Assembly: GCA_007135755.1 (NCBI GenBank)
Contig: SLIG01000036.1
Location: forward strand, 1 to 40,922
Direction: 5' to 3'
Length of the DNA: 40,922 bases
Source of the DNA: Cyanobium sp.
Lineage (GTDB): Bacteria > Cyanobacteriota > Cyanobacteriia > PCC-6307 > Cyanobiaceae
Below, piece after piece: positions 1-2,081 of this stretch (the first letter of the stretch is position 1; every line of letters begins with the position of its first letter). The notes under the pieces were generated by a model, which searched no databases, was not told where the DNA came from, and was given only the letters and a program-made list of their open reading frames with translations. The translations under genes were made by a program, and so were the position numbers.

Positions 1-493
1 CGCTGGCGGTGATGTCGTTGCCGTCGATTCGCCAAAACAAGCGTTGGCCACTGAGCTGCCGAGGAGCTTTGATGTTGCTTCGGATGCTCTTGCCTTCTTG
101 CACGGAAGGTCGGGAGAACGCTATCGAATAACCGGGTTTTGGTGGAGAAGGGTCCGGGGATTTTTGGTTCTTATCCAGAATTTCAAAGCTCCCTTTCGCA
201 ATGCGATGTCTTTGCCTGCGTTGCTGATCAGCGTAAAGAGTGAAGCGCGCTTGTTCGTTCTTTTCTTGGCGATTATCAACTCGGATATAGTGTCTTACCG
301 TAGCTCTGCCACGGGCATTCAGGATGACCAGGCCATTGTTTCGACCATCATTGAAGTCGTTTCTCTTGATACCCTTGCCTTCAAGGCTCCAGTAGAGCAG
401 TTGTCCCTGCTGTCTGCGAGGGGCTCTGATCCGGGTTAACAGCGGACGTCCTTCGCGTACGCTATTGCGCGAGAACCTAATCTTGAAAGCCAC
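1..493 (-). CDS. Tandem-repeat (Calx-beta-like) protein, 5' part
   Basis: Open minus-strand frame of 164 codons running off the left edge without a stop. It has no ATG; an in-frame TAG lies just upstream at about 506-508, and the only start after it is the GTG at 493-491, preceded by an AGAAG-like ribosome site. Residues 7-107 form one repeat and a second copy begins at 126, a period of about 119 residues. Both copies show FSR-x-SV-x-EG, then A-P-R, a G-Q-x-L-[YF]-W core and a Gly-Asp/Asn-rich turn. This layout (EG-x-x-L, LYW, DF-x-x-G) resembles the tandem Calx-beta-like repeats of large cyanobacterial surface or secreted proteins, which often start directly with a repeat and no signal peptide. 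Oddities: very rich in Arg and Lys, whereas such repeats are usually acidic, and clearly lower GC than the rest of the window. Function unknown; the frame is sure, the family is by resemblance. Confidence 0.65.
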   Translation of the reverse strand, partial: MAFKIRFSRNSVREGRPLLTRIRAPRRQQGQLLYWSLEGKGIKRNDFNDGRNNGLVILNARGRATVRHYIRVDNRQEKNEQARFTLYADQQRRQRHRIAKGSFEILDKNQKSPDPSPPKPGYSIAFSRPSVQEGKSIRSNIKAPRQLSGQRLFWRIDGNDITAS

Positions 494-525: not shown

Positions 526-1002
526 TCATGGAGGTGTCTGGATTCTGATCCGATAGCTGTCTTGAAAAGAACCACTCATTCCAGCCAGATACCCATCGCC
601 ATCGCCGCTGAAGTGCCGCAGGAAGCAGGCCAGGGCCATCGGGCCGCAGCGGCGCTGCCAGCGGATGCCGTGGCCGTAGTGGCGCCAGCAGCTGATCCGG
701 GCACCGCGGCCCCGCAGCTGGATCAGGTGGCGGTAGCAGGCCTGGCCGGCGGCGGCGCCAGCCCCTGCCGCCGGCAGGGCGGGCAGGGGGGAGAACACCG
801 CGCTGATCTCCGCGAATCCCAGCGGTGGTGCACCGCTGGCGCGCAATGGTGCCGCCAGCAGCGCGGCGATCCGCTCAGGTTCACCGCCTGCGGCGAGCCA
901 CCAGTGGCGCTGGCGCCGCAGCCCGCGATCGAGCAGGGAAATCAGGGCGGCAGAGGTTGCCGGACGGGCAACGCGATCGCAGGCAGGACGAAGGCACGAC
1001 AC
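526..1002 (-). CDS. Unrecognised protein, about 158 residues
   Basis: GTG-started minus-strand frame downstream of gapA (62-base gap) and just upstream of the repeat protein. Third codon positions are strongly G/C through most of its length, as in the sure genes here, so I prefer it to the opposing plus-strand frame. The product is rich in Arg, Ala, Trp and Cys; residues around 95-135 hold a Cys-Trp/Arg-His cluster with several aromatic residues. No family recognised, no signal peptide, no membrane segment. The last 20 or so codons (about 526-590) are much less GC-rich and may be read-through into a different sequence block. A partial or decaying gene is possible. Confidence 0.45.
   Translation of the reverse strand: MSCLRPACDRVARPATSAALISLLDRGLRRQRHWWLAAGGEPERIAALLAAPLRASGAPPLGFAEISAVFSPLPALPAAGAGAAAGQACYRHLIQLRGRGARISCWRHYGHGIRWQRRCGPMALACFLRHFSGDGDGYLAGMSGSFQDSYRIRIQTPP

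Positions 1003-1064: not shown

Positions 1065-2081
<1,017 letters not shown>

Follow-up and report, generated by a model that had tools for sequence, protein, structure and literature searches.

Calx-beta domains (PF03160) are beta-sandwich modules that form the Ca2+-binding domains of NCX1/CALX and are found in the LapA and BapP adhesins; bacterial examples have been described in large secreted adhesins (PMC12153261; PMC10574481). SGNH hydrolases work through Ser-His-Asp with a Gly/Asn oxyanion hole (reviewed in PMC9487903). Their members near carbohydrate esterase family 3 (CE3) include O-acetyltransferases (OatA) together with many esterases, so sequence does not predict substrate here (PMC9487903). 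Our literature search found no paper combining Calx-beta, cyanobacteria and SGNH. We describe a Cyanobium gene in which very basic Calx-beta-type repeats precede an SGNH/GDSL hydrolase, and both domain identities are well supported by profile comparison and structure prediction. What is new here is the position of the gene: it occupies a slot flanked by sdhB and orf130, a small ORF, and this slot has empty and divergent states.

The window, 40,922 nucleotides of Cyanobium sp., is the whole of contig C9 in a 196-contig assembly. At its left edge an ORF of 164 residues runs on the minus strand from a GTG at position 493 to position 2 and stays open through the contig end; the GTG is preceded, at a distance of five codons, by a TAG in the same frame. 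Residues 2-109 form a first basic repeat (167..490, minus; HMM 98.5 bits), followed by a short linker, QKSPDPSPPKP (134..166, minus), and by a second repeat that the contig end truncates after 44 of ~105 residues (2..133, minus; HMM 34.9 bits over these residues). The unit follows the pattern FSR..EG..APR..GQ.L.W; its FSR occurs at residue 7 and again at residue 126, and repeat 1 aligns with the start of repeat 2 at a BLOSUM62 score of 101, against a maximum of 47 in 2,000 shuffles. The earlier note had described two copies of a roughly 119-residue unit, and the period of 119 holds, although what the window contains of the second copy is those 44 residues. Its description of an Arg/Lys-rich protein of distinct base composition was borne out: the fragment has 35 K+R against 14 D+E and a pI of 11.54, and its GC is 0.52 (GC3 0.555) in a window of ~0.70 GC. 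The neighbouring gap gene has a GC3 of 0.92. This gene, named from sequence as glyceraldehyde-3-phosphate dehydrogenase, is a synteny neighbour at 1065..2066 (minus), and between it and the repeat ORF lies orf130 (526..1002, minus), a small conserved ORF that borders the slot. By tblastn, orf130 was seen at 10/10 genus loci examined, adjoining sdhB in each of these genomes; its ATX 6A2 orthologue has no Pfam match.

Since the window is a complete contig, the ORF cannot be extended leftward directly, and a scan of the genome contigs of close relatives with the window piece found nothing. A family-wide search identified Cyanobium sp. ATX 6A2, of the same genus, as the closest matching genome. 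Its orthologue is complete at 518 residues and has two repeats, a Pro-rich linker, a hydrolase domain that begins MAMGDSITVGFG, and the same neighbours. When the window genome was searched with this protein, residues 231-518 matched C190:54-923. The remainder of the gene is bases 1-926 of contig C190 (plus strand), in a frame open from the contig's first bases. The continuation proposed in the earlier note is therefore located on C190, not on C9; no stop codon was found shortly left of position 1. sdhB comes next after the C190 part, as it does in both orthologues. No 10-mer is common to the facing ends of C9 and C190, which do not join directly, so the link between them rests on synteny. The gap between the contigs would be ~200 bp if the gene resembles that of ATX 6A2, but in principle it could conceal further repeats.

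The second orthologue, from the metagenome-assembled genome Cyanobium sp. PLM2.Bin73, has 337 residues, with one repeat and the same hydrolase domain. This allele (L022:7176-8189) has lost 52 residues in frame from its SGNH domain with all catalytic motifs retained, and it may be inactive or altered. Both ATX 6A2 and PLM2.Bin73 have an intact copy in the same gene order, and we therefore rejected the idea that the ORF is merely an artefact of the contig edge. The gene is real and conserved, and it is not a giant protein.

The C-terminal half encoded on C190 matches Lipase_GDSL (PF00657, E 4.1e-14). The motifs GDSIT, HWGRxG, GTND and DGIHP are retained in C190 and both orthologues, the three genus sequences, and the SGNH block residues are all present (block I Ser, II Gly, III Asn, V Asp-x-x-His). 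In the PDB, a profile of the hydrolase family matched Clostridium thermocellum 2vpt (E 1.3e-51) and the Talaromyces cellulolyticus CE3 enzyme 5b5s (E 3.9e-33). For structure we used an AlphaFold2 model of the ATX 6A2 orthologue, not of the window gene (mean pLDDT 82), in which a flavodoxin-like alpha/beta SGNH fold is predicted. Residues 252-518 of this model superpose on 2vpt with Z 21.2 and an rmsd of 2.3 over 188 residues; 5b5l and 5b5s follow, so the top three structural matches are all CE3. The VIA-align rows spanned residues 251-518 alone and carry no information on the Calx-beta part.

From these profiles and the predicted fold, the C-terminal domain is well supported as an SGNH/GDSL hydrolase closest to CE3. 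It shares with 2vpt and 5b5s the catalytic-domain fold and the GDS..G..GTND..DGxHP motifs, at 20-27% identity to 2vpt. Unlike CE3 enzymes, it has extra insertions modelled at low confidence and N-terminal Calx-beta repeats fused on. One alternative keeps the architecture and assigns another activity, with the SGNH domain an O-acyltransferase or a lipid or thioester hydrolase and the basic repeats binding membrane lipids or lipid A. Relatives of the same fold, among them structural matches of the model, do include acyltransferases and lipases (PMC9487903), whereas CE3 carbohydrate esterases are nearest by both sequence and fold, ahead of the rest; we consider this alternative rather unlikely.

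The repeats were harder to place. The window piece had no match in Pfam, even at E 10, in NCBIfam or in PHROGs, and a PF03160 search of the window genome, PLM2.Bin73 and a third genome (G155) found nothing, so that no match exceeded the Pfam gathering score. We built an iterated HMM seeded by four window-type repeats, which gathered 72 domains, some of them redundant, from picocyanobacterial proteins both long and short among the ORFs scanned. This wider family aligned with 15 Pfam-level Calx-beta domains at an hhalign probability of 98.2 (E 3e-14), and controls reached at most 0.3% (column-shuffled) and 2.0% (reversed). The four window-type repeats by themselves scored 5.8, below significance, and a repeat-only profile found no Calx-beta chain in the PDB; it is thus the broader family, together with the predicted fold, that connects these repeats to Calx-beta. 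In a Foldseek search with the ATX 6A2 model, tandem Calx-beta domains of NCX1/CALX were among the best matches (9iv8, 8jp0 and 3us9, NCX1; E 1.8e-9 to 8e-9). A profile match to NCX1 was not counted as independent, as its alignment already contained Calx-beta seeds, and an AlphaFold2 model of the window piece alone was discarded (pLDDT 32).

Repeat 1 of the window keeps six acidic columns (E14, D46, D73, E77, E80 and D107), candidate Ca2+-ligand positions, which vary little or not at all in the joint alignment; some of these align with acidic residues of CALX. The E-G, D-F/Y, D..E..E and terminal D positions show this near-invariance across the alignment with this repeat. In contrast to described Calx-beta domains, these repeats lie below Pfam detection, carry an LYW..G.GI core motif, are very basic, and have lost the second-row acidic residues (DDD replaced by DKN or DNR). 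On the strength of the family-level profile match and the model, the identification of the unit as Calx-beta-type is supported, in keeping with the Calx-beta likeness pointed out in the earlier note.

Members of this repeat subfamily are also found in large proteins from related picocyanobacteria (Synechococcus and Cyanobium, with RTX, M10, SBBP or multicopper regions), whose open frames reach 3,102 and 8,311 codons. These proteins are mostly acidic, often very long and in many cases RTX-tailed, whereas the window protein is short and basic. Elsewhere in the genus, a 14,516-codon open frame has Calx-beta domains (G140:C1, ~2876920-2878533). The Prochlorococcus phages P-SSM2 (PSSM2_126, L151:4689-6146) and P-SSM5 (L152:2689-4146) encode a 485-residue hypothetical protein with one clear, acidic copy of the repeat (117.7 bits), and its gene sits between the terminase subunit genes gp16 and gp17.

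We next compared the slot between sdhB and orf130 across 13 genus genomes. It is filled in three and empty in eight others, where orf130 and sdhB are 20-53 bp apart; the remaining two were not scored, as no sdhB was found there. The alleles are strongly divergent. Between the window genome and PLM2.Bin73 the flanking genes are 95-97% identical in nucleotides and the hydrolase domain 59%, and between the window genome and ATX 6A2 the gene is 67% identical and the flanks 90-93%, with dS saturated. Third positions are saturated between alleles, while flanking genes show a dS of 0.08-0.23. Where the window genome is aligned with its sister genome, identity returns from ~610 of the window at one edge and within the final 20-odd codons at the opposite edge. 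Two of the alleles have a GC3 of 0.49-0.60, compared with 0.855 for the remaining one. A plasmid search gave no match, and viral contigs gave none.

On this small comparison of three alleles, repeated allele replacement by transfer is the likely explanation: the abrupt edges, the saturated synonymous sites and the mixed composition favour transfer over fast vertical change. Fast vertical evolution under relaxed or positive selection could leave an allele such as that of PLM2.Bin73, with its single repeat and in-frame deletion, as a decaying gene might; the saturated synonymous sites next to slowly diverging flanks, the abrupt change at the gene edges and the two classes of GC3 all argue against it, and we judge it improbable.

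We then examined charge along the protein. The repeats of the three orthologues have a pI of 10.3-11.7, so that their basic character is conserved in three species, compared with 4.1-4.8 for most of the wider family. The hydrolase half is acidic in the window genome (C190 piece, pI 5.5) and in ATX 6A2 (SGNH domain, pI 5.8), and in these two the positive charge therefore belongs to the repeats; in PLM2.Bin73 the SGNH domain is basic too (pI 10.6), and with it both halves. The positive charge is thus confined to the repeats in two of the three orthologues. In another locus (L010, G007:C20), moderately basic repeat copies (pI 9.6-9.7) are followed in the same frame by an ordinary Calx-beta domain. 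The simplest reading of the basic repeats is a cationic anchor that would hold the protein to acidic polysaccharide.

Close relatives of the SGNH domain are present in 11 of the 399 genomes of the order. In Synechococcus sp. WH 5701, 1G10, RedBA-s, Cruz-7E5 and others, an SGNH domain is followed by C-terminal RTX repeats, a hallmark of type I secretion; in the four named strains it is ~40% identical to that of ATX 6A2, and these proteins have the RTX region instead of N-terminal repeats. Cyanobium FGCU6 and FGCU52 encode the SGNH domain alone. The repeat-bearing protein has no RTX match (PF00353, GGxGxDxxx nonapeptides), and its chain ends after the last SGNH helix. In a search for HlyD, the homologues of the window genome all fell below the curated cut-off and the model also fired in most control genomes, which makes the result uninformative on secretion of this protein. 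The RTX-tailed sister proteins nonetheless suggest an extracellular ancestry.

Taken together, the window ORF is best explained as the N-terminal end of a ~500-residue protein in which two cationic Calx-beta repeats are joined by a Pro-rich linker to a CE3-type SGNH domain, and this protein probably acts at the cell surface. That this action is de-esterification of surface polymers with the repeats as cationic anchor is a plausible proposal, which we hold tentatively. The SGNH domain would remove O-acetyl or other acyl groups from polysaccharide, using Ser-His-Asp and the Gly/Asn oxyanion hole, while the basic Calx-beta pair would tether the enzyme to a polyanion, for example acidic sheath material, LPS or exopolysaccharide of the cell itself. 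Strains would exchange alleles by recombination through the conserved flanks, presumably on account of the protein's action on the cell surface.

The protein might instead be intracellular, with the basic repeats bound to nucleic acid or some other polyanion within the cell and a housekeeping esterase role for the SGNH domain. By inspection, no N-terminal signal peptide was seen in the window ORF, as the earlier note had said, or in the two orthologues, and the same was true of the SGNH relatives, both RTX-tailed and the bare domain of FGCU6 and FGCU52. Against an internal location stand the large secreted adhesins from which bacterial Calx-beta domains are known, the RTX secretion tails of the sister proteins, and the Pro-rich linker, of a kind typical of extracellular multidomain enzymes; we regard it as rather unlikely. 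That the ORF begins a giant surface protein built of repeats, the kind of protein to whose repeats the earlier note had likened the unit, is very improbable even though giant picocyanobacterial proteins share the repeat family and the assembly break inside repeat 2 could hide extra copies, for the same-locus orthologues have 518 and 337 residues against a threshold of >3,000 and the matching C-terminal half, an SGNH/GDSL hydrolase, lies on C190 beside sdhB as in the orthologues; of that likeness, the cyanobacterial kinship of the repeat stands.

Returning to the surface-acting esterase, these data point to a Calx-beta subfamily that lacks annotation, is common among picocyanobacteria and also occurs in a cyanophage, here fused to an esterase and with its charge reversed. 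A more speculative extension, to which we give a low probability, is that picocyanobacteria trade whole divergent alleles of a polyanion-tethered esterase through a swappable slot, with Calx-beta domains converted from acidic binders of Ca2+ into cationic anchors. If so, changes in the acylation of surface sugars would alter recognition by phages or grazers. If the slot turns over by transfer, it would offer a tractable locus for variation in the surface chemistry of Cyanobium.
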